The notes beneath the pieces are model-generated. The model was not told where the DNA came from, ran no database searches, and was given only the letters and a program-made list of their open reading frames with translations. This document shows, one piece after another, positions 8,871-47,517 of a stretch of 64,000 nucleotides of DNA. This stretch comes from Azorinus chamasolen. Its lineage: Eukaryota > Mollusca > Bivalvia > Cardiida > Solecurtidae. The stretch covers positions 25,364,655 to 25,428,654 of the forward strand of contig OY755252.1 of assembly GCA_963576725.1 (NCBI GenBank). Reading direction: 5' to 3'. The position numbers and the translations under genes were made by a program. Numbering within the stretch: the stretch's first letter is position 1; the number at the start of each line of letters is the position of its first letter.

Positions 8871-10446
8871 GTTTTTCTCTGGGTATAATCCTATAGAGCC
8901 CTGTACACATTGTACTACCGGTGATGGTTCTCCTATTGGTATAATCCTATAGAGCCCTGTAAATATGGTACTATCTATGATGGTTATCCTCTGGGTATAA
9001 CCCTATAGAGCCCTGTACACATGGTACTACCTTTGACGGTTGTCCTCTGGGTATAACCCTATGTAGGCTTGTTCACATTGTCCTCTCTTGTTATAACCCT
9101 ATATAGCCATGTACACATGGTACTACCTGTGTTGGTTGTCCTCTGGTATAACCCTTTAGAGCCCTGAACACATGATACTACCTGTGATAATTTTCCTCTG
9201 GGTATAACCCTATACAGCCCTGTACACATGGTACTACTTGTAATGGTTGTCCTCTGGGTATAACCCTTAATAGCCCTACCTTCTACATGTTGTCTTCTTG
9301 TTATAACCCTATATAGCCCTGTACACATGGTACTACCTGTGTTGGTTTTCCTCTGGTATAACCCTTTAGAGCCCTGAACACATGGTACTACCTGTGATGG
9401 TTTTTCTCTGGGTATAATCCTATAGAGCCCTGTACACATTGTACTACCTGTGATGGTTCTCCTATTGGTATAATCCTATAGAGCCCTGTAAATATGGTAC
9501 TATCTATGATGGTTATTCTCTGGGTATAACCCTATAGAGCCCTGTACACATGGTACTACCTTTGACGGTTGTCCTCTGGGTATAACCCTATGTAGGCTTG
9601 TTCACATTGTCCTCTCTTGTTATAACCCTATATAGCCGTGTACACATGGTACTACCTGTGTTGGTTGTCCTCTGGTATAACCCTTTAGAGCCCTGAACAC
9701 ATGATACTACCTGTGATAATTTTCCTCTGGGTATAACCCTATACAGCCCTGTACACATGGTACTACTTGTAATGGTTGTCCTCTGGGTATAACCCTTAAT
9801 AGCCCTACCTTCTACATGTTGTCTTCTTGTTATAACCCTATATAGCCCTGTACACATGGTACTACCTGTGTTGGTTTTCCTCTGGTATAACCCTTTAGAG
9901 CCCTGAACACATGGTACTACCTGTGATGGTTTTTCTCTGGGTATAATCCTATAGAGCCCTGTACACATTGTACTACCTGTGATGGTTCTCCTATTGGTAT
10001 AATCCTATAGAGCCCTGTAAATATGGTACTATCTATGATGGTTATTCTCTGGGTATAACCCTATAGAGCCCTGTACACATGGTACTACCTTTGACGGTTG
10101 TCCTCTGGGTATAACCCTATGTAGGCTTGTTCACATTGTCCTCTCTTGTTATAACCCTATATAGCCGTGTACACATGGTACTACCTGTGTTGGTTGTCCT
10201 CTGGTATAACCCTTTAGAGCCCTGAACACATGATACTACCTGTGATAATTTTCCTCTGGGTATAACCCTATACAGCCCTGTACACATGGTACTACTTGTA
10301 ATGGTTGTCCTCTGGGTATAACCCTTAATAGCCCTACCTTCTACATGTTGTCTTCTTGTTATAACCCTATATAGCCCTGTACACATGGTACTACCTGTGT
10401 TGGTTTTCCTCTGGTATAACCCTTTAGAGCCCTGAACACATGGTAC
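8871..10446 (-). repeat. 529-bp higher-order repeat, three copies
   Basis: Inside the inverted array a block recurs with exact 529-bp spacing; the marker GTTTTTCTCTGGGTATAATCC starts at 8,871, 9,400 and 9,929. 529 is not a multiple of 56, so each block includes a partial unit, with the odd stretch CCTACCTTCTACATGTTG. The last two copies look almost identical, which implies recent amplification. Confidence 0.9.
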
Positions 10447-13400
10447 TACCTCTGATGGTTGTCCTCTGGGTAGAACCCTATATAGCCCTGTACACATGGT
10501 ACTACCTGTGGTGGTTCTCCTATTGGTATAATTGTACAGAGCCATGTAAATATTGCACTACTTGTGACGGTTGTCCTCTTGATATTATCCTATATAGCCA
10601 TGTATACATGATACTACCTGTGATGGTTGTCCTCTTATTATAACCTTTTATAGTCATGTACACATGGTACTAACTGTGATGGTCTTCCTCTGGGTATAAC
10701 CCTATAGAGGCCTGTATACATGGTGCTACACGTGATTGGTATCCTTTGGGTATAACCCTATAGAGCCCTCTACACATTGTACGACTTGTGATAACTGTCC
10801 TCTGGGTATAACCCTATAGAGCCCTGTTCACATGGTACTACCTCTGATTGTTGTCCTCTAGGTATAACACTATATAGCCCTGCTCACATGGTACTACCTG
10901 TAATGGTTGTCCTATTGGTATAATCATATAGAGCACTGTACACATGGTACGACCTGTGATGGTTGTACTCTTGTTATAACCCTATATAGCATTGTACACA
11001 TGGTACTACCTGTGATGGTTGTCCTCCTGTTATAACCCTACATAGTACTGTACACTTGGTACTACCTGTAATGATTGTCCTCTGGGTATAACCCTTTACA
11101 ACCCTGTACACATGGAACGACCTCTGATGGTTGTCCTCTGGGTGTGACCCTATACAGTCCTGTACACATGGTACTACCTCTGATGGTTGACCTTTGGGCA
11201 GAACCCTATATAGCCCTGTTCACATGGTACTACCTGTGCTGGTTGTCCTATTGCTTTAATCGTATAGAGCCCTGTAAATATGGTACTACCTGTGATGGTT
11301 GTCATCTGGGTATAACCCTATAGAGCCCTGTACACATGGTACTACCTGTGACGGTTGTCCTCTATGTATAACCCTATAGAGCCCTGTACACATGATACTA
11401 CTGGAGATGGATCTCCTTTGGGTATAATCCTATAGAGCCCTCTACACATGGTACCACCTGTGATGGGTGCCCACTGGTATAACCCTTTAGAGCCCTGTAC
11501 ACGTGGTACTTCATGTGATTGATGTCCTCTGGGTATAACCTATTTAGCCCTGTAAACATGGTACTACCTGTAATGGTTGTCTATTGGCATAACTGTATAG
11601 AGCCCTGTACACATGGTTCGACCTGTGATGGTATTCCTTTGGGTATAACCCTATAGAGCCCTGTACATATGGTACTACCGGTGATGGTTGTCCTCTGGGT
11701 ATAATCCTATAAAGCCCTGTACACATGTTACGACCTGTGATGGTTGTCCTTTTGTTATAACTTTATATAGCCTTGTACACTACTTGTGATGGTTGTCCTC
11801 TTGTTATAACCCTATATAGCCTTGTACACATGGTACTACCTGTGATGGTTGTCCTCTTGTTATAACTCTATATAGCCTTGTACACACGGTACTACCTGTG
11901 ATGGTTGTCCTCTTGTTATAACTCTATATAGCCTTGTACACACGGTACTACCTGTGATGGTTGTCCTCTTGTTATAACCCTATATAGCCTTGTACACATT
12001 GTACTACCTGTGATGGTTGTCCTCTTGTTATAACTCTATATAGCCTTGTACACACGGTACTACCTGTGATGGTTGTCCTCTTGTTATAACTCTATATAGC
12101 CTTGTACACATGGTACTACCTGTGATGGTTGTCCTCTTGTTATAACTCTATATAGCCTTGTACACATGGTACTACCTATGATGGTTGTCCTCTTGTTATA
12201 ACTCTATATAGCCTTGTACACATGGTACTACCTGTGATGGTTGTCCTCTTGTTATAACTTTATATAGCCTTGTACACTACCTGTGATGGTTGTCCTCTTG
12301 TTATAACCCTATATAGCCTTGTACACATGGTACTACCTGTGATGGTTGTCCTCTTGTTATAACTCTATATAGCCTTGTACACATGGTACTACCTGTGATG
12401 GTTGTCCTCTTGTTATAACTCCATATAGCCTTGTACACATGGTACTACCAATGATGGTTGTCATCTGTTATAACTCTATATAGCCTTGTACACATGGTAC
12501 TACCTGTGATGGTTGTCCTCTTGTTATAACTTTATATAGCCTTGTACACTACCTGTGATGGTTGTCCTCTTGTTAAAACCCTATATAGCATTTTACACAT
12601 GGTACTACCTGTGATGGTTGTCCTCTTGTTATAACTTTATATAGCCTTGTACACATGGCACTACCTGTGATGGTTGTCCTCTTGTTATAACTCTATATAG
12701 CCTTGTACACATGGTACTACCTGTGATGGTTGTCCTCTTGTTATAACTCTATATAGCCTTGCACACATGGTACTACCTGTGATGGTTGTCCTCTTGTTAT
12801 AACTCTATATAGCCTTGTACACATGGTACTACCTGTGATGGTTGTCCTCTTGTTATAACTCTATATAGCCTTGTACACATGGTACTACCTGAGATGGTTG
12901 TCCTCTTGTTATAACTCTATATAGCCTTGTACACATGGTACTACCTGTGATGGTTGTCCTCTTGTTATAACTCTATATAGCCTTGTACACATGGTACTAC
13001 CTGTGGTGGTTGTCCTCTTGTTATAACTCTATATAGCCTTGTACACATGGTACTACCTGTGATGGTTGTCCTCTTGTTACAACTCTATATAGCCTTGTAC
13101 ACATGGTACTACCTATGATGGTTGTCCTCTTGTTATAACTCTATATAGCATTGTACACATGGTACTACCTGTGATGGTTGTCCTCTTGTTATAACTTTAT
13201 ATAGCCTTGTACACTACCTGTGATGGTTGTCCTCTTGTTATAACCCTATATAGCCTTGTACACATGGTACTACCTGTGATTGTTGTCCTCTTGTTATAAC
13301 TCTATATAGCCTTGTACACATGGTACTACCTGTGATGGTTGTCCTCTTGTTATAACTGTATATAGCCTTGTACACATGGTACTACCTGTGATGGTTGTCC

Positions 13401-20162: not shown

Positions 20163-22127
20163 ACAAGAGATGTTTGTAAAACATGTATACCCCCCAGACC
20201 CCCTGACCTTTGATCTAGTGACCTCAACTATAGAGGTCATCTAGTGGTCATGACTAATCACCACAGCAACTTTGAAGATCCTAAGCCAAACCACTGATCA
20301 TTTATTGATCTGAAAACATTTCACAAGTTAAGGTCATGGTGACCTTGACCTTTGACTTAATGACCTCAACAACTATAGGGGTCGTCTAGTGGTCATGACC
20401 AACTACCACAGCAAGTTTTAAGATCCCGAACCAAACCATTGAGCAGTTATTAATTGGAAACCATTTCATCAGTTAAGCTCACGATGACCATGATCTTTGA
20501 TCTAGTGACCTCAAAAGCAATAGGGGTCATCTAGTGGTCATGACCAACCACCACAGCAAGTTTGAAGATCCTAAGCCAAACCCTTGAGCAGTTATTGATC
20601 GTTAACCATTTCACCAGTTAAGGTCATGGTGACCTTGACCTTTAACCTAGTGACCTCAAAAACAACAGGCCTCATCTAGTTGTCAGATCCTAAGCCAAAT
20701 CCTTGAGCAGTTATTGATAAGAAACCATTTTACCCGTTAAGGTCATGGTGACCTTGACCTTTGATCTAGTGACCTCAAAAACAATAGGGGTCATCCAGTG
20801 GTCATGACCAACTACTGCAGCAAGTTTGAAGATTCTAAACCAAACCCTTGAGCAGTTATTGATCGGAAACCATTAAACCATTTAAGGCCATGGTGACCTT
20901 GACCTTTGACCTAGTGACCTCAAAAACAATAGGGGTCATCTAGTGGTCATGACCAACCACCACAGCAAGTTTGAAGATCCTAAGCCAAACCCTTGAGCAG
21001 TTATTGATCGGAAACCATTAAACCAGTTAAGGTCATGGTGACCTTGACCTTTGACCTAGTGACCTCAAAAACAACAGGGCTCATCTAGTGGTCATGACCA
21101 GCCACCACAGCAAGTTTGAAGATCCTAAGCCAAACCCTTGAGCAGTTATTTACCGGAAATGATTTCACCAGTTAAGGTCATGGTGACCTTGACCTTTGAC
21201 CTAGTGACCTCAAAAACAACAGGGCTCATCTAGTTGTCATGACAAACCACCTAAGCAAATTTGAAGATCCTAAGCCAAACCCTTGAGCAGTTATTGATCA
21301 GAAACCATTTTATCAGTTAAGGTCATGGTGACCTTGACCTTTGACCTAGTGACCTAAAAAACAATAGGGGTCATCCAGTGGTCATGACAAACTACCACAG
21401 CAAGTTTGAAGATTCTAAGCCAAACCCTTGAGCAGTTATTGATCGGAAACCATTAAACCAGTTAAGGTCATGGTGACCTTGACCTTTGACCTAGTGACCT
21501 CAAAAACAATAGGGGTCATCTAGTGGTCATGACCAACCACCACAGCAAATTTGAAGATCCTAAGCCAAACCCTTGAGCAGTTATTGATCACAAACCATTT
21601 TATCAGTTAAGGTCATGGTGACCTTGACCTTTGACCTAGTGAGCTAAAAAACAATAGGGGTCATCCAGTGGTCATGACCAACTACCACAGCAAGTTTGAA
21701 GATTCTTAGCCCAACCCTTGAGCAGTTATTGATCGGAAACCATTTAACCAGTTTAGGTCATGGTGACCTTGACCTTTGACCTAGTGACCTCAAAAACAAT
21801 AGGGGTCATCTAGTGGTCATGACCAACCACCACAGCAAGTTTGAAGATCCCAAGCCAAACCCTTGAGCAGTTATTGATCGGAAACTATTTCACCATTTTA
21901 GGTCATTGTGACCTTGACCTTTGACCTATTGACCTCAAAAAACAATAGGGGTCATCTACTTGTCATGACCAACCACCACAGCAAGTTTGAAGATTCTATG
22001 CCAAGTCGTTTATTAGTTATCATTCGGAAACCATCGATCTACCGACCGACCGACCGACAGACCGACCGACCGACCGACATGTGCAAAGCAATATACCCCC
22101 ATTTTTTCAAAAGGGGGGTATAATAAG
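20163..22127 (+). mobile_element. Pearl-like element 2, 145-bp core repeats
   Basis: Left end GTATACCCCCC; twelve core units; a CGAC microsatellite at about 22,035-22,078; right end GGGGGGTATAATAA preceded by TATACCCCC, giving an inverted terminal motif. The motif AGGTCATGGTGACC (or its variant) starts at 20,331, 20,476, 20,621, 20,740, 20,885, 21,030, 21,175, 21,320, 21,465, 21,610, 21,755 and 21,900. Spacing is exactly 145 bp except one step of 119 bp, a 26-bp deletion. Same layout as element 1 but with unrelated core sequence. Non-coding. Confidence 0.8.
20331..21930 (+). promoter_or_regulatory. Clustered nuclear-receptor half-sites
   Basis: Ten of the twelve 145-bp units carry a perfect inverted repeat AGGTCAnnnTGACCT, the consensus oestrogen-response element. 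It is directly followed by TGACCTTGACC (ERR/SF-1-type extended half-site). In the eight units from 20,885 onward TGACCTTTGACCT follows, a perfect DR1 site for RXR, HNF4 or COUP-TF type receptors. The motifs are seen directly; any binding or regulatory effect is inference. Confidence 0.55.
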
Positions 22128-22411
22128 CATATTTTATAAATTGTATAACTATGAAAACTTTCTTTTTATTCTGTTGCGTTGTGATGATTAAACCTTTGAA
22201 TGCTGAAATTTTAAAATGAAATGGCCCATCATTGTTTAACTGTATATTGCATGACTCATTATATAAGACTTAAAGTTGCTCGATGATTTTGAATACTAAA
22301 CAGTGAAGACCCAGATCAGAGGGTTGCTTTTTTGGGTCTACACTGTTTTTAAATGTCAGTATACTTTTCTTTCCCGCATACAAACAATTTGTTTTGAATA
22401 CATGAAAATAA
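22128..22411. other. Sequence 5' of the Naiad frame
   Basis: AT-rich sequence that may contain the 5' end of the retroelement, but no boundary can be fixed. It contains an imperfect hairpin of 13-base arms (CAGTGAAGACCCA with TGGGTCTACACTG, 22,302-22,345). In the Naiad frame a TGA (22,403-22,405) and a TAA (22,409-22,411) lie just before the recognisable protein. Confidence 0.5.
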
Positions 22412-25360
22412 TTTGTGTTAGACAGTTTGAAACAATATTATAACATATTATATCCAATAATTACTAAGTGCAATAGTAAGAGGTGTATGTGTTGCAATTT
22501 CATTTCTACTAGATCAACAATTAAATCTCTTGTTAATGGTAGAGTGTTTAGTGTGAAGATTAATTCTGATTTAGACTGAAACTCATCTAATATTATATAT
22601 GTTCTTACATGAAATGCGCCACGTTGTGGCATTCAATATGTAGGTCAGACATGACGTTCTTTAAAAACTAGGTTTCGTGAACACAGTTACCATTGCCGGA
22701 TCAAAAAAGTACGCAATTTTCTTTACCAGCATTTTCGTCATACAGGACATTCTTTCAAATATGTTTCGGTTCAACCAGTAGAACAAATTTATTATGATTC
22801 TAAAACTACTGGTAGTTTAAAATCTAAAGCTCGTTTTATCACAGAGCTAGACTGGATAAAGAAATTACAAACACCTTTTCCTTTAGGCCTTAATGATAAC
22901 ATTTTCCAAAGCGGCAACATTTCTAAAGATCCAAGTATCGATATTTTCTCTATATTTTCTATTCGAAAACGTAAAAGTAGATCACATGGCAGACGTAGAA
23001 ATGGTAATATTAAGCGTAAATTACGTCGTAATATGTCTATTCATGATTTACATACTATTCTAAAACAAACTGGTAAACATTCTATGTTATCTTGTTTATC
23101 GTCTTTACCCTTTTCCTGTCTTAAGTCAATAGACGAAGAGGCTGATAAAATCTATATGCGTACAGATCCGTTAATTAATACTGCCTTACTTATACAAAGT
23201 TACACACAGCATGTTCTTCGTCCACGTATTGATAAAGAATCTGAACATAAAAGAAATTTTCTGAAACTTCAGTTCCTAAATAAAGGTATCGATTTTATTG
23301 ATATTCAAAGTATATTTCGTGATAAGAATGTAATCGATGCTATTCCCAAATATTTCATCAACTCTGAATCACCTATCATCTGTTATAAATATAATAAACC
23401 TATTAGAAATGTTATTTTGAACTACAATAAAATTGTCTCTGACTTAAATATTGATGTTAATACCCCTATTTCTTGAGATTGTAGCATTTCTAGCTTTTGC
23501 TATAAACCAGTTGGTCATGTCATTACTGGTAATTTTGATATCATTAAGGATAAACGTCTCAGGAACCTCCTAACTAAAGGACCTAAATATAGATTACCTT
23601 CCCTTATTGATTTTGACGCTTGTCGAACTCATATTGCGGAAGCTATTCAAGAATTCTGCATCAAATGGTGTCGACGAGAACATGCTGATGTTAATGCCCT
23701 TTCGGATTGGAAGAAATGTATTTTCGATATTATTGATACACGAATAACTTTTTACAAATCAAATAACCATCTTTTACCACCTCGACCTAGAGTTACATTT
23801 CGCTACTTGAAGAAAAGCATTTCTAATTTTCATTCAGATTATGTTCTTGTTCCTGCTGACAAGGCATCAAACAATGTAATCATTATTTGAAGATTGTATT
23901 ATGTTGATGTTTTAAAGAAGGAGCTAACTGATTCAAAAACTTATATAACAGTTCAAACATCTGAAAAAGATATAGTCTCGGAACATGTAAAAATGTGCAA
24001 TGATTTTAAGTCTGGTCCTAACATAAAACAACATAAACTTTCTACTTTGTACTGGATTCCGAAACTACATAAAAACCCTTATAAGTCGCGTTTTATTGCC
24101 AACTCTAGCTGTTGTACCACTACTAAATTATCTATACTTTTGACGTCCTGTCTTACTACGATCAAAGAACATGTTAAACGCTACTGTGATAAAATATATG
24201 AAAATTCTGGTATTAATGTTTTTTGGTCCATAAAAAATTCAAATGATGTTTTAACAAAACTTGAAAATGAACAGTATAACATTTCTTTACTGAGCTCTTA
24301 TGATTTCTCTACACTCTATACTACTCTACCTCACCATCTTATAAAGGATAGACTTATTAAATTAATAGAAAAAACCTTTGCCAGAGAAAACAAAATGTTC
24401 ATTGCTTGTAATGTTCAACGTTCATTCTTTTCGAATTCAGAAGTTGAACATTACACAATGTGGACTTGCCTTGATGTTTGTAGATCTCTTACCTTTCTTT
24501 TAGATAATATATTTGTGCGTTATGGAGATACCATATATCGTCAAGATGTTGGTATACCCATGGGTACAAATTGTGCCCCTCTTGTTGCAGATTTGTTTTT
24601 GTATTGCTACGAGAGGGATTTTATGCTTAGCTTAAAACCTGATACACAGACCGATATTGTTAATGCTTTTAATAAAACTTCAAGGTATTTAGACGATATT
24701 TTGAATTTAGATAATCCTTATTTTGATACTATGGTTTCTTCAATCTACCCAAAAGAACTGTCTTTAAACAAAGCTAATCAATCTGACATTAATGCTTCAT
24801 TTTTAGATTTGAATCTTTCAATTACAAATGATAAAGTTTCGTCCAAAGTATACGATAAAAGAGAAGATTTTAATTTTAAAATTGTTAATTATCCTTTTCT
24901 AGATGGGGATGTGCCACGTTCTACATCTTATGGTGTTTATATTTCTCAACTTATTAGGTTTGCCCGAGCCTGTTCTTTGCTTGAAGATTTTAACAGACGT
25001 AATTTAGTTATAACTGATAAACTTCTTAAGCAAGGTTACAGATATCACAAACTTCGGAAAACCTTTTCTAAATTTTATTATCGAAATTTACCTCTCATTA
25101 GTAAATATAATTGCAATCTACGGACGTTACTGCGACAAGGCATTTCTCAACCAGAATTTTATGGGGATGTTATCTACAAACTTAGGAAAATTCGGGGTCA
25201 TATCCATTTTCATGATTTGTTTATAAAACGCATTAAAACATTTAAAAAGAAAGGTTATGATCCTATTATATTGCAACACACTGCATGTTTGGTTATCGAC
25301 CCTTTTACAGTCGGTAGCTACGCTTCCCTCTTTGCTTGCGCGATGACAGGCCGAGGGTAG
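22412..25360 (+). CDS. Naiad-type Penelope-like element protein: N-terminal GIY-YIG endonuclease + reverse transcriptase, selenoprotein
   Basis: Single frame of 982 codons broken only by TGA at 22,577, 22,610, 22,652, 23,474 and 23,888 (residues 56, 67, 81, 355, 493); it ends at TAG. There is no internal TAA or TAG. Order: CxxC-like segment (KRCMCCNF), GIY-YIG nuclease (NIIYVLT, CGIQYVGQT, LKTRFREH; residues about 60-115), basic linker, a CxC-type motif read as TGA-Asp-Cys, then reverse transcriptase with SSYDFSTLYTTLPH (Asp 631), GIPMGTNCAP and RYLDDIL (759-762). A nuclease placed before the RT defines the Naiad/Chlamys class of Penelope-like elements; clam Naiads with several selenocysteines are known. 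The TGAs sit where relatives have Cys (after VLT, in CxC, after NVIII) or a variable residue. The start is not fixed; the N terminus may be truncated. It copies itself by target-primed reverse transcription (family knowledge). Confidence 0.85.
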
Positions 25361-25422
25361 TACTCTATGATGGTATACTCTTAAACTTGGATACAGGAGG
25401 AGCTTACCAGACTCATGTATTA
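25358..25422 (+). promoter_or_regulatory. SECIS-like element in the Naiad 3' UTR
   Basis: Starts at the TAG stop. Helix I TAGTAC (25,358-25,363) pairs with GTATTA (25,417-25,422). A 4/4 internal loop follows. The non-Watson-Crick quartet is TGAT (25,368-25,371) with AGAC (25,409-25,412). Helix II is GGTA with TACC, a 2/2 internal loop, then CTCTT with AGGAG. The apical loop begins with AAA (25,383). The distance from quartet to AA is 11 nt, as in known eukaryotic SECIS elements. It would direct UGA decoding as selenocysteine. The fold was derived by hand; support comes from a covarying copy at 37,431-37,494. Confidence 0.75.
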
Positions 25423-25932
25423 TTTTTTCCCTGTCGTGCCCTTAACGGCTTACCTGCAGGTGCTCTGACTTCAGCAAAGTCATTGAGTACATATTTGACG
25501 GATTGTCACAGTTATTATGCTATGTTTTACATGTTGTCCTGTGTTCACCGTCGTCTATGTTGTGGGTAAGTCCAGCGGGGATACCTTTATTTACAATATT
25601 TGTAAAGCTAGGGTGACTTTGAGAGAAGTGCGAGGTTAGGACGTCCGTAAACCGGTTTAAACCCCCAGTGGTGTTTTTGCTGCTGACCGTGCCAAGGCGG
25701 TACTCTCTTTGTCACCCTTCCTTTTGTTTGCCTTGCGTCTTTGTGCTTGTGGTTTATGTTGTGGAACGTTTGTCCCTGGTTCTTGTGTCTCTTTTGTGTT
25801 CATTTCGTGTGTGTGTGTGTGTGTGCGTTTGGGTGTGTGGTTGTGTGTGTCATACTGTCTATTGGTGTTTTGGTGGTGGTTGCGTCTTGCATGTGGCTTT
25901 GCCTGCTTGACTTTACTACTTTTCCATTACTC
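25423..25932 (+). other. Naiad 3' UTR and terminal tail, subfamily A
   Basis: Non-coding tail ending in CTTGACTTTACTACTTTTCCAT at about 25,932. Landmarks are ACCGGTTTAAACCCCC near 25,650, a GT-rich stretch near 25,809-25,850, and TTGTTTGCCTTGCGTC. The same tail recurs at 37,015-37,250 (+), 40,717-41,035 (-), 53,163-53,389 (+), 53,480-53,775 (-) and, diverged, 59,137-59,564 (+). This fixes the 3' end of the element. The Val/Cys-rich open frames over the GT tract are artefacts. Confidence 0.75.
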
Positions 25933-30110: not shown

Positions 30111-30434
30111 AGATTTGAAAATGAGAGTCACATCAATTCAATAGTTGCTGCTGAGCAGGGATCTTTAGACTCAAATGCAAAAACCTTGAAATACACTGCC
30201 TCTCTGTTTGAAAACTTAACTCTGACTGCAAAGAAAGCAAGGAAGTAGGCCAAACAGTAGGGATAGATCAGACTCACGCTCACGCAAGGAAATCGAGTTT
30301 CACTTAAAGGGGTATAAAGCTTTTAACTGTTTGGAAAATGAACAATTCAAATGTCGCTCTGCATCAAACACACCAACTAAATAGGAAAACTAGTCTTGAA
30401 TGAAAATTAGTAAAGTCAAGTTAAAGTTTTATCA
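30111..30434. other. Unassigned sequence
   Basis: Between a Naiad tail and a Naiad RT fragment. Similarity to the main element stops at about 30,435. No gene seen. Confidence 0.4.
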
Positions 30435-31680
30435 AAAGCATCAGCCCGTGTATCTGGTTTTAAGCTTAGCATAAAATCCCTCTCATAGCAATACAAAAAA
30501 CAAATCGGCAACAAGAGGGGCACACTTTGTACCCATGGGCATACCAACAACTTAACGATATATGGTATTCCCATAACGCACAAATACCGCCGGTATATTA
30601 TCTAAAAGAAAGGTGAGAGATCTACAAACATCAAAGCAAGTCCACATTGTGTAATGTTCACTTTTTGAATTCGAAAAGAATGAACATTACAAGCAAGGAA
30701 CATTTTATTTTCTCTGGCAAAGGGTTTTACTATTAATTTAATTAGTTTATCCTTTATAAGTTGGTGAGGCAGAGTAGTATAGAGTGTAGATAAATCATAA
30801 GAGCTCAGTGAAGAAATGTTAAATTGTTAATTTTCAAGTTTAGTTAAAACATCATTAGAATTTTTATGGACCAAAAACATTAATACCAGACTTTTCATAT
30901 TTTATCGCAGTAACAATTTACATGTTCTTTGATCGTAGTAAGACAGGACGTCAAAAGTTTAAATATGTTAGTATTAGTACAACAACTACGGTTGGCAATA
31001 AAACGCGCACTATAAGGGTTTTTATGTAGTTTCGGAAACCAGTACAACTAGAAAGTTCCTGTTGTTTTATGTTACCAGACTTAAAAGTATTGTACATTTT
31101 AACATGTTCCGAGACTACACATGTATATCTTTTTCAGGTGTTTGAACTGTAATATAAGTTTGTGAACCAGTTAGCTCCTTTTTTAAAACATCAACATAAT
31201 ACAATCTTCAAATAATGACTACATTATAGGATGCCTTGTCAGAAGGAGCAAGCACACACTTTGAATGGAAATTTGAAATGTTTTTCTTCAAATAGGGCAA
31301 TGCAACTCTGGGTCGAGGTGATAAAAGCTGGCAATTTGATTTGTAAAAAGTAATGCGCGTATCAATAATATCAAAAATACATTTCTTCCAATCCAGAAGG
31401 GCATTAGCATCAGCATGTTCTCGTCGACACCATTTGATTCAGAATTCTTGAATACCGGTAGCTTCCGCAATATGAGTTCGACAAGCGTCAAAATCAATAA
31501 GGGAAGATACTCTATATTTAGGTCCTTTAGTTAGGAGGGTCCTGAGACGTTTATCTTTAATGATATAAAAATTACCAGTAATGACATGACCAACTGGTGT
31601 ATAGCAAAAGCTTGAAATGCCACGATCTGAAGAAGTATGGTTATTGACATCAATATTTAACATATTTATTGTAGTTAAAA
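30435..31680 (-). pseudogene. Naiad copy 2: linker and RT N-terminal half
   Basis: Minus-strand relative of the protein at 22,412-25,360. It includes GHVITGNFYIIKDKRLRTLL at its upstream side and runs to the YERDFMLSLKPD-type segment at 30,435-30,480. Several frameshifts. The TGA before RLYYVDVLKKE is kept (31,210-31,208, minus strand), matching TGA at 23,888 in the main copy. At the CxC position it has TCA-GAT-CGT (Ser-Asp-Arg) instead of TGA-GAT-TGT. Truncated before the RT YLDD motif. Confidence 0.8.
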
Positions 31681-32962
31681 ACTAGAATTGTTTTTGATAC
31701 AAAAACTGATGTCCCCCAAGCGTCAGGGTAAACTTTTCCGAAGTCCCATAACTCTGCAGACAAACCTTTAAACCGGAAAACGAATAAACTATGCACAACT
31801 AGGCATAGTGCTGATCAATCCTTTGAAGTTTCATGAAAATCCGACCAAAGATTTTAGAGAAACCACGCAGACAAAATTTTCCATGTGAAAATTTCAAAGT
31901 CCCTTATGACTGAAGAAAATAATAAAACAGGAATAGGAATAAGACATGCACAACTAGGCATGGTGCTGATCAATCCTATCAAGTTTCATGAAAATTCAAT
32001 CAAATGTTTTGGAGAGACCGCGTGGACAAAATTTTCCATGTGAAGATTTCAAAGTCGTATAATTCTGCAGTAAATCATACAACCAGAACAGGAATAAGAT
32101 ATGCACAACTGGGCATGATGCTAATCAATCCTATGAAATTTAATGAATATCCAATTAAAGGTTTTGGGACAATAACTTCAATATTATTGAAGCCAGAGTT
32201 ATGAAAAATACCGAACACTTCCTTCCACCATGCTCTTTCTATCAATGAAATGTCATTCCAATACCATCAGTAGAACAGGAGTTATTGATCGGAAAAAATG
32301 TCACAAAGGACAATAACTCCAAAAGTATTGAAGCCAGAGTTATGGCCCTTATACATGACACTTCCTATCATCATGCTCTTTCCATGTATGAAGTTTCAAT
32401 CAAAAGGCATGAGCAACATAGGAGTTATTGTCCCGACAAGAAAATGTAAATATTTGACCTCGAATTGTGACCATGATCTTGAATTATGACCTTGACGTTT
32501 GAACCACGTGCCTGAATCCTGCTGTCTGCACATTGGATTGTTAAGGAGAACAGTTGTGCCACAGCATTTTGGAATCCTTCCAAGGGTTATTCAGATCTAG
32601 ACTTGAATTGTGACCTTGACCTTTGTGCCTGAATCCTGCTGTCTGCACATCGGCTTGTTAAGGAGAACATTTGTGCCACAACATGTTGAAACCCTTCCAA
32701 CGGTTTAAGAGATATGGAGCGGACACGAAGGGTGTGGCTAAAATGACTTGAATTGTGACCTTGACCGTTGATCCATGTGCCTGAATCAAACGTTCTGCAC
32801 ATTGTCTTGTTGAGTCGAACATTTGTGCCAAAGCATTCTGAAATCCTTCCATAATTGTGAGAGATATGGAGCGGACATGAGTGCGACAGGCAGACATACG
32901 GACAGACAGACGGACAACTCGACCAAAACAATATGTCTCCCCATTATAAATGGGGGAGACAT
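31681..32962 (+). mobile_element. Pearl-like element 3, inserted in Naiad copy 2
   Basis: Left end has GTTTTTGATACAAAAAC then GATGTCCCCC. Core units contain TATGCACAACTAGGCAT and AGTTTCATGAAAATCC, then AATTGTGACCTTGACC and ATATGGAGCGGACA. A GACAGACGGAC tract lies near 32,900, and the right end is ATGTCTCCCC with GGGGGAGACATAA. The interrupted Naiad gives the empty site: GTTAAAA joins TAACATT with nothing lost. A target duplication longer than 2 bp is excluded. Confidence 0.75.
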
Positions 32963-36729: not shown

Positions 36730-37012
36730 TACACGGAACGTCTATTACCTTGACGGAGATGTTTCCCATGCTCCGTCTAAAGGGTTTACATATCTCAACT
36801 TATTGGTTTTGCTAGAGCTTGTTTTTCCGTTGACGCTTTTAACAGTCGACATCTCATTCTAACTGAAACGCTGCTAAGGCAAGGGTATACGATATAAACC
36901 AAGAACACCATTATCTAATTTTTACCACCGAAATGTCTCACTTATTGGCAAGTAAAAGTGCAATCTTAAGATGCTCCTGCGACACCGATTTCACATCCGG
37001 AAATTTATGGTG
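36730..37012 (+). pseudogene. Naiad copy 3: RT C-terminal remnant
   Basis: Translates in pieces to YYLDGDVSHAPS, then ISQLI-like and LILTE-like segments and KCNLK, corresponding to FLDGDVPRSTSYGVYISQLI onwards in the intact protein. Frameshifted and with stop codons. Joined at 37,015 directly to a tail-A fragment, so the insertion is rearranged. Confidence 0.65.
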
Positions 37013-37014
37013 AT

Positions 37015-37255
37015 GTGATTGTCACCCTTTTGTTTGCCTTGCGTCTTTGTATTTGTGATTGTTCATGTGTGGAGTGTTTGTCTCTGGTTCTTGTGTGTCT
37101 GTTGGTGTTTTCTGTGTTCATCTCGTGTGTGAGTGTGCGTTTGGGTGTGTGGTTTCGTGTGTCGGTGTGTCATGCTGTCTATCGGTATTTTGGTGGTGGT
37201 TGCGTCTTGTATGTGGCTTTGCCTGCTTGACTTTACTACTTTTCCATTTACAAAC
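37015..37255 (+). mobile_element. Naiad tail A fragment
   Basis: TTGTTTGCCTTGCGTC, a GT-rich tract, and CTTGACTTTACTACTTTTCC at the end. The Val/Cys-rich open frames over it are artefacts of GT-rich sequence. Confidence 0.75.
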
Positions 37256-37692
37256 TACGCAATATTTTTGGACACCAGTTTCCCCCCTTTGTTCATCATA
37301 TACGTATGTTTAAAATGCATTAAAAAGGCATGTGCTTCTACAGTACTACAACATACTGCATGTCTGGTTGTCAGCCCCTTTGCAGTTGGCAATCACGCTG
37401 CCTCGTTCCATGTACGCCGACATGAAAGGCTTAGTACTCCATGAAGACGCTCTCTTCAATCCAGAAACGGAAGGAGGACGTCGGATCTTTGTATCTCTTT
37501 TTGTCGTACCCTTAATTACTTTTCTACAGTTACTCTGATTGCAGCTCAATCATTGAGTACACTAGCGATAAAGTGGATACAGTTTATTTCATTTAAATAT
37601 ATTTTTGTTTTACATGCAATTTACGGCTGTATTTGTCATCACAGTTGTTGTAGATTCGTCGTAGAGGGGATATGTTTATTTACACTTTTTGT
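37256..37692 (+). pseudogene. Naiad copy 4: protein C-terminus, SECIS-like hairpin and B-type 3' UTR
   Basis: Encodes LQHTACLVVSPFAVGNHAAS, equivalent to LQHTACLVIDPFTVGSYASL at the end of the main protein. The SECIS-like hairpin follows (37,431-37,494), then a 3' UTR with TTGTCGTACCC, CAATCATTGAGTAC and GATACAGTTTATT, shared with 42,550-42,720 (+) and 50,920-51,110 (-). A mariner interrupts the UTR at 37,693. Confidence 0.7.
37431..37494 (+). promoter_or_regulatory. SECIS-like element, second Naiad lineage
   Basis: Helix I GTAC (37,434-37,437) with GTAT (37,491-37,494); 4/4 internal loop; quartet TGAA (37,442-37,445) with GGAT (37,483-37,486); helix II GACG (37,446-37,449) with CGTC (37,479-37,482), one C-A mismatch, then TCTCTT pairing with AGGAGG; AA at 37,458-37,459, 12 nt after the quartet. 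Where the main copy has GGTA/TACC this one has GACG/CGTC: both strands changed and pairing is kept. Confidence 0.7.
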
Positions 37693-37694
37693 TA

Positions 37695-38997
37695 CGAGGG
37701 GTGTTCCAAAAATAATGTCACTTGCATCGGTGCTCATATAGCGGAAGTGCTTTTGTTCATTTTTATTTGCTCTGCCCTTCAAAATACTCTCCGCCAGCCA
37801 GAATACACCTTTTTAGCCGGTCAATCCATTTTTGGAAGCATTTTTCATACTCTTCAATGGGGACACCCATCAGACACTGATAAACAGCAGATCCAAGGGC
37901 ATTTCTCGAATTGTATCTCCTTCCAGATAAATGATATTTAAGTTTTGGAAAGAGAAAATAGTCGCAGGGGGCCAAGTCTGGCGAATACGGAGGGTGCGGA
38001 AGGACGGTAACCTTCTCTGACTCCAAAAAGTCAGTCACAATACGTGCCTTGTGAGCGGGTGCATTATCATGCAAAAGTCGGACATACTTAAGTCCTGTTT
38101 TGGGGCGGCTACTTTTGTAGTAGTTCTTCAATTTTCTCAGAACAACGTTTTTATAGAACTTGCCTGTGACCGTTCTGCCTTTTGGCACCGGGATTTGAAT
38201 AGCTGGACCCTTATTAGTGAAAAAATAGCATACAAAACCTTCTTTACCGTTCGTATTCGTTTGGCAATACGGGGGCGTCTGGCATTTTTAGTGGCCCATA
38301 TTCGGTTGGAAACCTTCCGCTTTGGTTCAAAATAATACACCCAGGTCTCATCACCAGTGACTATATTATCAAAAGCCTTTTTACTATATTTTGGGTACAT
38401 TTTGAGAAGTTTTTTGCCATTGTTACACGCGTCTTCTTTTGCTCATCCGTTAACAAATGGGGTATCCATCTTGCATTTATCTTTCTAACTTTTAGGTGTT
38501 TCTTCAAAATTGCATGAACTCTTGCTAACGACAAGTTTGTCATTCGAGCCAATTGTCTTACGGTGAATCTTATGTTACCTTTGGTCGTAGTTGTTGCAGG
38601 ACGACCTGGGCGAGCAGCATCTTTCAGTTGCTGCTGCCCAGCACTCAATTTAGCTACCCACCTACAAACAGTCCTGTTGGACATTTGGCCCTCCCCATAA
38701 ATGTCACACACCTCGCGGTGAATATCTACAGCCTTTATGCCGAGTATTGACCTACCTTTTATATAGGCCCTAATTTCAAGAACATTTTCAGCTCGTTTTC
38801 CTGTCATTTTGTGTATAGTCTAACGAATAGGCTATGAAACGATGTACATTGTACCGAGGCAAGTGAACGTGTGGACGAGATATTTACCTGTGTCACGAGC
38901 CAGTGATCACTCAATCGACACGAGGTGGTTTTGTGCATGAATTGCACGATTTCCGCGAAATAAAGCACAGATGACATTATTTTTGGAACACCCCTCG
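37695..38997 (-). mobile_element. Mariner-family DNA transposon, complete
   Basis: 1,303 bp with perfect 26-bp terminal inverted repeats (CGAGGGGTGTTCCAAAAATA at the left, its complement at the right) flanked by TA on both sides (37,693-37,694 and 38,998-38,999), the usual Tc1/mariner target duplication. It sits inside a Naiad 3' UTR copy that resumes at 39,000. Identical ends imply a recent insertion. Confidence 0.95.
37763..38807 (-). pseudogene. Mariner transposase, two frameshifts
   Basis: Cut-and-paste transposase in three overlapping pieces: 38,807-38,361 (MTGKRAENVLEIRAYIKG, N-terminal helix-turn-helix DNA-binding region with GRPATTTT linker), 38,400-38,137 (first catalytic Asp in TGDETWVYYFEP) and 38,188-37,763 (second Asp in LLHDNAPAH, third in PPYSPDLAPCDYF). 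There are 34 residues between the last two Asp, the DD34D signature of mariner. Length (about 345 residues) is normal. Both frame changes lie in homopolymers, an A-run near 38,410 and a T-run near 38,222, each explained by one missing base. They may be real lesions or assembly errors. Confidence 0.9.
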
Positions 38998-40716: not shown

Positions 40717-42085
40717 AAAAAAGTAGTAAAGTCGAGCAGGCAAAGCCACATACAAGACGAACCCACCACCAAAACATCGATAGAAAGCATGTCACACACA
40801 CACAACTACACACCCAACACACGCACATACACGATAAGAACACAGATAACCTTAACAAACACAAAAGTACCAGATACTAACATTCCAAACATTAACAAAA
40901 GCACAAGTACAAAGACACAAGAGTGGCAAGATAACCACTGGGGGTTTAAACCGGTTTACGGACGTGCTAACCTCACACTTATATCAAAGTCACCCTGTCT
41001 TAACAAAAAGTGTAAATAAAGATGTCCCCGCCGGACTTTCCCACAACATAGAATACGGTAAACACATGACAATATGTAAAACATGGCACAACTTTGAAAA
41101 ATCTGTTAAATATGTACTCAATGACTTTGCTGAAGTTAGAGCAACTGCAGGGAAGCCGTTAAGGGCACGGCATGGAAAAGGTTATACATAATTAATTCTG
41201 AAGGGTGGTGATCCCCCGAAAGCAAAAATTGCAACACAAAAAGAGAAAATTGCTGACTCGGTTTTATTGAGTCTGTTCATGAGCAGTAATTGAAGTCTGG
41301 TAAGCTCATCCCGTTTCTGAGTTTAAGAGTATACCACCATAGTGTACTACCCTCGGCCTGTCATCGCGCAAGCAAAGAGGGAAGCGCGCAGCTACCGACT
41401 GTAAAGGGGTCAATAACCTAGGATGCAGTGCGTTGCAATAAAATATGTCATAACCTTTCTTCTTAAAGGTTTTAATGCGTTGTATAAACAAACCATGACA
41501 ATTGATATAACCCCGAATTTTACTAGGTTTGTAGATAATATCGTCATAACATTCTGGGTGAGAAATGCCTGGTTGCAGTAACGTCCGTCGATGGCAATTA
41601 TATTTACTAATGAGGGGTACATTTCGAAAATAAATTTAGGAAGCGTTTTCAGAAGTTTGTGATATATGTAACCTTGCTAAAGAAGTTTACCAGTTATGAC
41701 TAAATTACGAATGTTAAAATCTTCAAACAAAGAACAGACTCGGGCAAACCAAATAAGTTGGATGTAGAACGGGTCAAATCTCCATCTAGAAAAGGATGAT
41801 TAACAATTTTAAAATTGAAATATTCCCTATTATCGTATAGTTTGGACGAAAGTTTATCATTTGTGATGGAAAGATTCAAATCTGAAAAGGAAGCCATAAT
41901 GTCAGATTGATTCGCTTTGTTTAAGGACAGTTCTTTTGGGTAAATAGAAGAAATAATAGTTTCAGAATAAGGATAATCCAAATTTAAAATATCGTCTAAA
42001 TACCTTGAGGTTTTATTAAAAGCATTAACAATATCGGCCCGTGTATCAGGTTTTAAGCTTAGCATAAAATTCCTCTCATACCGAA
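40717..42085 (-). pseudogene. Naiad copy 5, 5'-truncated, inserted in a pearl-like array
   Basis: Minus strand. It begins at 42,085 within the RT (MLSLKPDT, NKTSRYLDDILNLD, FNFKIVNHPFLDGD), runs through the C-terminus and SECIS region (41,300-41,365), includes a dispersed-repeat piece (41,196-41,293) and ends with tail A at 40,717. Several frameshifts and a deletion after the DGD region. The SECIS stem (GGTA/TACC, AAA, AGAC) is present but the quartet ATGA has become ATGG. Flanking core repeat reads CCTCCTAT before and ATACCGAATC after, so the insertion is precise, with at most a very short duplication. Confidence 0.8.
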
Positions 42086-46749: not shown

Positions 46750-47517
46750 TTATAGAGTACTACACTTGGCCTGTCATCGCGCAAGCAAAGAGGGAAGCGT
46801 AGCTACCGAATGTGAAGGGGTCAATAACCAAACATGCAGTGTGTTGCAATATAATCTGGTCATAACATTTCTTCTTGAAAGTTGTAATGCGTTTAATAAA
46901 CAAATCATGTAAATGGATATGACCCCGATTTTTTCTAAGTTTGTAGATAACATCATCATAGGATTCTGGGTGAGAAATACCTTGTTGTAGTAATTTAAAG
47001 ACTTAAAATTAGTATTCATCTCCATATTGGATATAACCAAGGTCTACACAATACCGCAACAATAATAATGTACTGCCTTAAGCCGTCGATATAATGTAAT
47101 CATCAAATAATAATGACATTATTCGATGCTTTATCAGCAGGGGCGAGGATGTATGTTGGATGGACATCTTGTAAGCTCTTTATAAGATATCTAAAAGTAA
47201 TTATAGGGTTAGGTGAAAGGTGTTCATTTGAGCTATAACATGCAACGCGGTAGTCAATTATATAAAAAATAGATCTTACCTGTCCGAATGAGCATAAGAC
47301 TCAACATGTTCTCTACGATACCATTTAACACGAATATTTTGTAAAGCCTCCGCAATCTGACCTCGACAAGAGTGAAAATCTATCGAGGATGGTATTCTAT
47401 ATTTTGGAACTTTATTCAGAACAAATCGTAGACGTTTATCTTTAATTACCTCCAAATTATCAGTAATTACGTGGCCAGTCGGAGAAAAGCAAATGTTAAG
47501 GTGGCACAGCCTCAACT
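46750..47517 (-). pseudogene. Naiad copy 6: CxC linker and RT end pieces
   Basis: Minus strand. 47,517-47,276 encodes the linker (GHVITDNLEVIKDKRLRFVL) preceded by TGA-GGC-TGT at 47,514-47,506, i.e. the CxC motif with TGA first, before a one-base deletion. Near 47,105 the NNVIII segment is again followed by TGA, then by a second TGA. Most of the RT is deleted; 46,750-46,990 holds the C-terminal part up to the SECIS start. Confidence 0.75.

Follow-up and report, generated by a model that had tools for sequence, protein, structure and literature searches.

The window, by which we mean the whole 64,000-nucleotide stretch of DNA that was analyzed, contains a Penelope-like retroelement, likely of the Naiad type. 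Its frame includes five TGA codons that are very probably read as selenocysteine through a SECIS-like hairpin that overlaps the stop codon. The encoded enzyme is predicted to be a selenium-containing reverse transcriptase because its frame has five TGA codons, no other internal stop, and a SECIS-like hairpin at the stop (Table 1). Selenocysteines were reportedly described in 2021 at several positions in the Naiads of clams and spiders, and a selenocysteine-encoding clam retroelement is likely of a kind already reported.

Table 1. Predicted features of the element (main copy) and of related copies in the window
Feature	Position	Strand	Remarks
Retroelement ORF	22412..25360	+	982 codons + TAG; GIY-YIG endonuclease, linker, reverse transcriptase
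TGA 1	22577..22579	+	residue 56; precedes NSSNIIYVL
GIY-YIG domain	22592..22738	+	residues 61-109; 19.9 bits vs Pfam cut-off 22.6
TGA 2	22610..22612	+	residue 67; 3' of YVLT
TGA 3	22652..22654	+	residue 81; 3' of GQT
Telomerase-like reverse transcriptase fold	23390..25255	+	residues 327-948
TGA 4	23474..23476	+	residue 355; position 1 of CxC linker
TGA 5	23888..23890	+	residue 493; flanked by NVIII and RLYYVDVL
YLDD	24686..24697	+	intact in ORF
SECIS-like hairpin	25357..25423	+	overlaps stop codon; core AUGA / AAA / GA
TAG stop codon	25358..25360	+	within 5' strand of SECIS helix I
3' untranslated region	25361..25928	+	four copies cease matching at 25922-25928
SECIS parts	AUGA 25367-25370; apical AAA 25383-25385	+	AAA followed by helix III; 3' GA follows helix II
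In-frame TAA	25382..25384	+	next stop after TAG; AA common to SECIS apical AAA
Decayed copy	30421..31681	-	87% identical; site 5 TGA kept, site 4 TCA
Old copy	36749..37561	+	66-83% identical in pieces; TAG + SECIS with compensated pairs
Decayed copy	40719..42080	-	RT end + SECIS region; AUGA to AUGG
Old copy	47078..47477	-	70% identical; site 5 TGA kept

The first-pass annotation described a frame of about 980 codons that is interrupted solely by five TGA codons, and this description was borne out. The ORF (22412-25357, plus strand) comprises 982 codons with five TGA, no TAA, and no TAG codons before the terminating TAG at 25358, and the remaining five frames of the same segment contain 50, 132, 56, 55, and 109 stops. 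The origin of the internal stops was modeled as single-base changes from the sense codons present in the ORF. Because TGA is expected in just 26-28% of new stops under this model, the finding that five of five stops are TGA has a p-value of 0.0012-0.0017. Both this result and the undisturbed single frame of 982 codons argue against the alternative that the element is a dead retroelement copy in which ordinary decay has produced TGA-only stops by chance.

The positions of the TGA codons were compared with Cys columns in an alignment (A1) containing 23 of the 32 relatives obtained from a protein search. Cys occupies the column of residue 56 in 10 of 10 relatives and that of residue 67 in 12 of 12, with the alignment of P0005 doubtful at the latter. 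Residue 355 aligns with Cys in 19 of 21 relatives and with Trp in the other two, and residue 493 with Cys in 19 of 23 and with Trp in four. Residue 81 falls in a variable column (n = 12; six Lys, two Gly, and one each of Thr, Cys, Arg, and Ile). The claim that the TGA codons mostly occupy Cys positions thus holds for four of the five sites but not for residue 81. At the DNA level, all four Cys sites are TGT or TGC codons in relative L001, whose site 81 is GTA, and relative L002 has TGT at site 493, the sole Cys site it covers. Columns that are at least half Cys in the relatives number 13 of 982, and the probability that at least four of the five TGA codons would fall on them by chance is 9e-8, a coincidence that decay would also have to explain.

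The domain motifs had been described as intact, and DFSTLYT, GIPMGTN, and YLDD, the last of which we take to be reverse transcriptase motif C, are indeed present. The GIY-YIG match in the ORF has an E-value of 9.5e-4, though its score is below the Pfam cut-off, and 11 of the 24 members of A1 also match. The Pfam model RVT_1 was matched by nine of these 24 members and not by the ORF protein, and a profile search of solved structures found no sequence match at E 0.01. As in Naiad Penelope-like elements, the GIY-YIG domain is N-terminal to the reverse transcriptase (RT), the linker between the domains carries a CxC-type motif (UDC at residues 355-357, where residue 357 is Cys in 95% of A1), and the RT is related to telomerase RT. 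Canonical Penelope/Poseidon elements, recovered as the distant matches P0025-P0032, have the same two enzyme domains, but their GIY-YIG domain is located near the C-terminus (640-768 in P0027 and 628-757 in P0028), whereas it is N-terminal in the 22412-25360 ORF.

Gene callers fragment genes of this kind, and the ends of many database relatives coincide precisely with the TGA sites. Residues 82-354 were used in a search limited to proteins of 150-478 amino acids, which resulted in 345 matches, 120 of them listed. The C-terminal ends of these 120 listed proteins correspond to residue 354 in 69 cases, residue 492 in 39, and other positions in 12. Such exact ends indicate that the listed relatives have stops at sites 355 and 493, and their coincidence with these sites is a further point against decay. 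We infer that the stops are TGA, as the database relatives show stops through protein ends alone. Relatives that read through both sites are absent from this set because of its length window; P0002, which has Cys at both 355 and 493, is an example of such a protein. A search with the RT resulted in 3111 matches, 120 of which were listed and pooled with the 32 relatives to give 151 proteins. Among the matches listed in this pool, no N-terminal start falls within residues 442-494, and starts are found at residue 495 in 23 proteins and at residue 501 in 16.

Some of these predictions raise the possibility that TGA is decoded as an amino acid other than selenocysteine, for example Trp or Cys, through readthrough or a changed code. 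Trp is found in 4 of 271 relatives at site 355 (P0001, P0003, P0105, and P0169) and in six at site 493 (P0001, P0003, P0004, P0005, P0103, and P0105), compared with Cys in 60 and 29 relatives and other residues in two and four, respectively. However, these Trp residues lie on Cys columns and are consistent with a gene caller having translated TGA under code 4. Plain readthrough, moreover, needs no SECIS-like hairpin, and the fact that TGA is a stop in animal nuclear genomes also counts against such decoding, which we regard as very unlikely.

Several relatives are located in records that carry bacterial names. P0128, P0151, and P0245 are in lucinid symbiont records, and L002 and L003 are from a Bathymodiolus symbiont record, which makes a bivalve the likely host of the element. 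Four relatives are on bacterial genome contigs, three of them in symbiont records (with mussel or thioautotroph names) and one in a Planctomycetota bin; these four presumably represent host contamination. The near full-length relative L001 (2063-4850; about 30% identity) is in a record titled Planctomycetota bacterium and is probably eukaryotic contamination. No relative was found in viral contigs, and a degenerate pattern that requires TGA at site 5 likewise had no match there.

The putative SECIS was evaluated by covariance model, folding, core motif, and comparison between copies. The Rfam model SECIS_1 matches 25359-25421 with 23.2 bits, which is below the gathering score of 35, and with an E-value of 0.58 in 7 kb or 5.3 over the 64-kb window. 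Folding of 25352-25430 gives a SECIS-shaped minimum-energy structure (-22.5 kcal/mol, z -2.46), which is equaled by 2 of 200 shuffles. A strict core scan, which was designed after the candidate was known and required AUGA, a helix of 11-13 nt containing no more than two mismatches, AA, and GA, resulted in a single match on both strands of the 64 kb, 7 nt 3' of the TAG; 0.24 matches per window are expected from 100 dinucleotide shuffles. Comparison of three copies (main, 41281-41351 on the minus strand, and 37431-37500 on the plus strand) revealed five compensated pairs, of which helix II has three and helix III has two. This number is reached by 8 of 500 shuffles, with slid controls giving zero or one. 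Pairing across the three copies extends to 93% of cells in helix II and 57% in helix I, and both decayed copies share the central-helix fold, with AUGA gone in one. The core, the fold, and the compensated pairs, if not the Rfam score, support a SECIS downstream of the TGA codons. The hairpin, the four Cys columns, and the relatives whose C-terminal ends coincide with site 355 or 493 provide three independent lines of support for the multi-selenocysteine reading put forward in the first-pass annotation.

The other copies within the window are 66-94% identical to the main element. Site 493 is covered by two decayed copies (at 31 kb and 47 kb) and is TGA in both; site 355 is covered by one, which reads TCA. 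Elsewhere the decayed copies contain four TAA, two TAG, and two TGA stops as well as gaps. The random mixture of stops in genomic copies that the first-pass annotation had named as evidence against its reading is thus seen away from the shared site and not at 493. Ordinary decay draws its support from these decayed neighbors and from the first Cys motif of the main copy, which is not preceded by an in-frame ATG. Given that both decayed copies covering site 493 retain TGA there, and in view of the evidence given above, we consider it very unlikely that decay explains the TGA codons. The dN/dS values relative to the main frame (0.16-0.77 in eight comparisons) fit purifying selection preceding decay. 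Among five other window copies that include the TAG, AUGA is kept at 37432, 59156, and 59028, and is replaced by AUGG at 41349 and by AUAA at 46762; the remainder of the SECIS is lost from the copies located around 59 kb and 46 kb.

The main copy had been judged to be in good condition, which is true of its frame, motifs, and SECIS, but its 5' end is doubtful. A TAA at 22409 is located immediately 5' of the ORF, and the first in-frame ATG is codon 26 (22487), beyond the first two Cys residues of a motif at 20-28. Since no in-frame ATG precedes this first Cys motif, either translation begins at another place or the 5' end has suffered damage, and the 22412-25360 copy may be 5'-defective. No 5' flank beyond 22655 is common to the other window copies. 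Naiad elements can be inserted in tandem or with pseudo-LTRs and near microsatellites. No element repeats flank the main copy, and an (ACCG)n array is present at 22041-22078, at a distance from the element that depends on where its 5' end lies. The adjoining TAA, the lack of an upstream ATG, and the unshared flank would all be expected if the family used selenocysteine and the main copy, being 5'-truncated or damaged, makes nothing, an explanation that we consider quite possible, if somewhat less than probable, given that the remaining frame, motifs, and SECIS are intact. It does not conflict with selenocysteine use at the family level. The predicted multi-selenocysteine reading stands firm for the family and with a reservation for this copy, which may be inactive if its 5' end is damaged. 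The 3' end of the element is probably near 25922-25928. The end of the 3' UTR (25709-25928) also occurs alone at 37019, 53164, 53481, and 40719, as if 3' fragments insert independently.

The overlap between the stop codon and the SECIS was examined in the pooled proteins. At least residue 960 is reached by 116 of the 151 listed proteins, which end at 982 (the TAG position) in 52 cases, at 990 (the TAA position) in 31, and elsewhere in 33. The stop of the 31 relatives ending at 990, which form 10 groups at 85% identity, would be TAA. Every one of them extends into the SECIS and carries a Met five residues from its end, and the next residue is Met in 27, Thr in two, and Asn and Ile in one each. 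Because these residues all have A-initial codons, the ATGA is conserved in all 31. As a tentative proposal, and one that we hold to be rather unlikely, a large bivalve retroelement lineage may have fused the SECIS to the end of the gene, such that the stop codon lies within the SECIS and terminating ribosomes unfold the recoding signal. If true, the stop would be either a UAG in helix I (22412-25360 copy) or a UAA that supplies the invariant apical AA (31 relatives); each terminating ribosome would unfold the SECIS because the stop codon is part of it; and termination would be coupled to the supply of selenocysteine for the five UGA codons. With a stop codon inside a SECIS, one could test directly if selenocysteine insertion is hindered or aided by a ribosome that terminates there. 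A literature search that did not reach the Naiad paper found no description of a stop codon as part of a SECIS. A review places the SECIS of cellular genes in the 3' UTR (PMC8310308), and an exception is described in fowlpox glutathione peroxidase, whose SECIS is in the coding sequence (PMC8310308, PMC6769590). The fowlpox SECIS is like that of the clam element in overlapping coding sequence and not lying wholly in the 3' UTR, but it belongs to a viral gene and not to a retroelement, whereas the clam element has a stop codon in its SECIS and five UGA codons.

In the mechanism that we propose, the host selenocysteine machinery would bind the SECIS, and ribosomes would insert selenocysteine at the five UGA codons and then terminate at the UAG. 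Four of the selenocysteines would take the place of cysteines that are conserved in the endonuclease region, in the CxC linker, and in the RT fingers; the GIY-YIG domain of the protein would nick DNA and its telomerase-like reverse transcriptase would copy the element RNA. Several UGA codons in one animal mRNA are also found in selenoprotein P, a selenium carrier whose domains are unrelated to those of the clam element. Frames with more than 45 UGA codons are mentioned in PMC8310308. For an element that copies itself, selenocysteine comes at a high cost and has to persist through every insertion round, and for this reason the sites that alternate between Cys and TGA constitute a natural test of the benefit of selenium to an enzyme that cuts and copies DNA.

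Other repeats were observed in the window. A 145-base tandem array is located at 20204-22004, just 5' of the element, and its main part holds about nine units at a 91% match. Two open stretches on the minus strand at 37763-38819, adjoining an old element copy, contain HDNAPAHKA and YSPDLAPCDYFLFPKLK and resemble a mariner-type transposase. At 9059-10557 on the minus strand, a nearly identical frame of 138-146 codons occurs three times at a spacing of about 529 bases, forming a larger tandem repeat.
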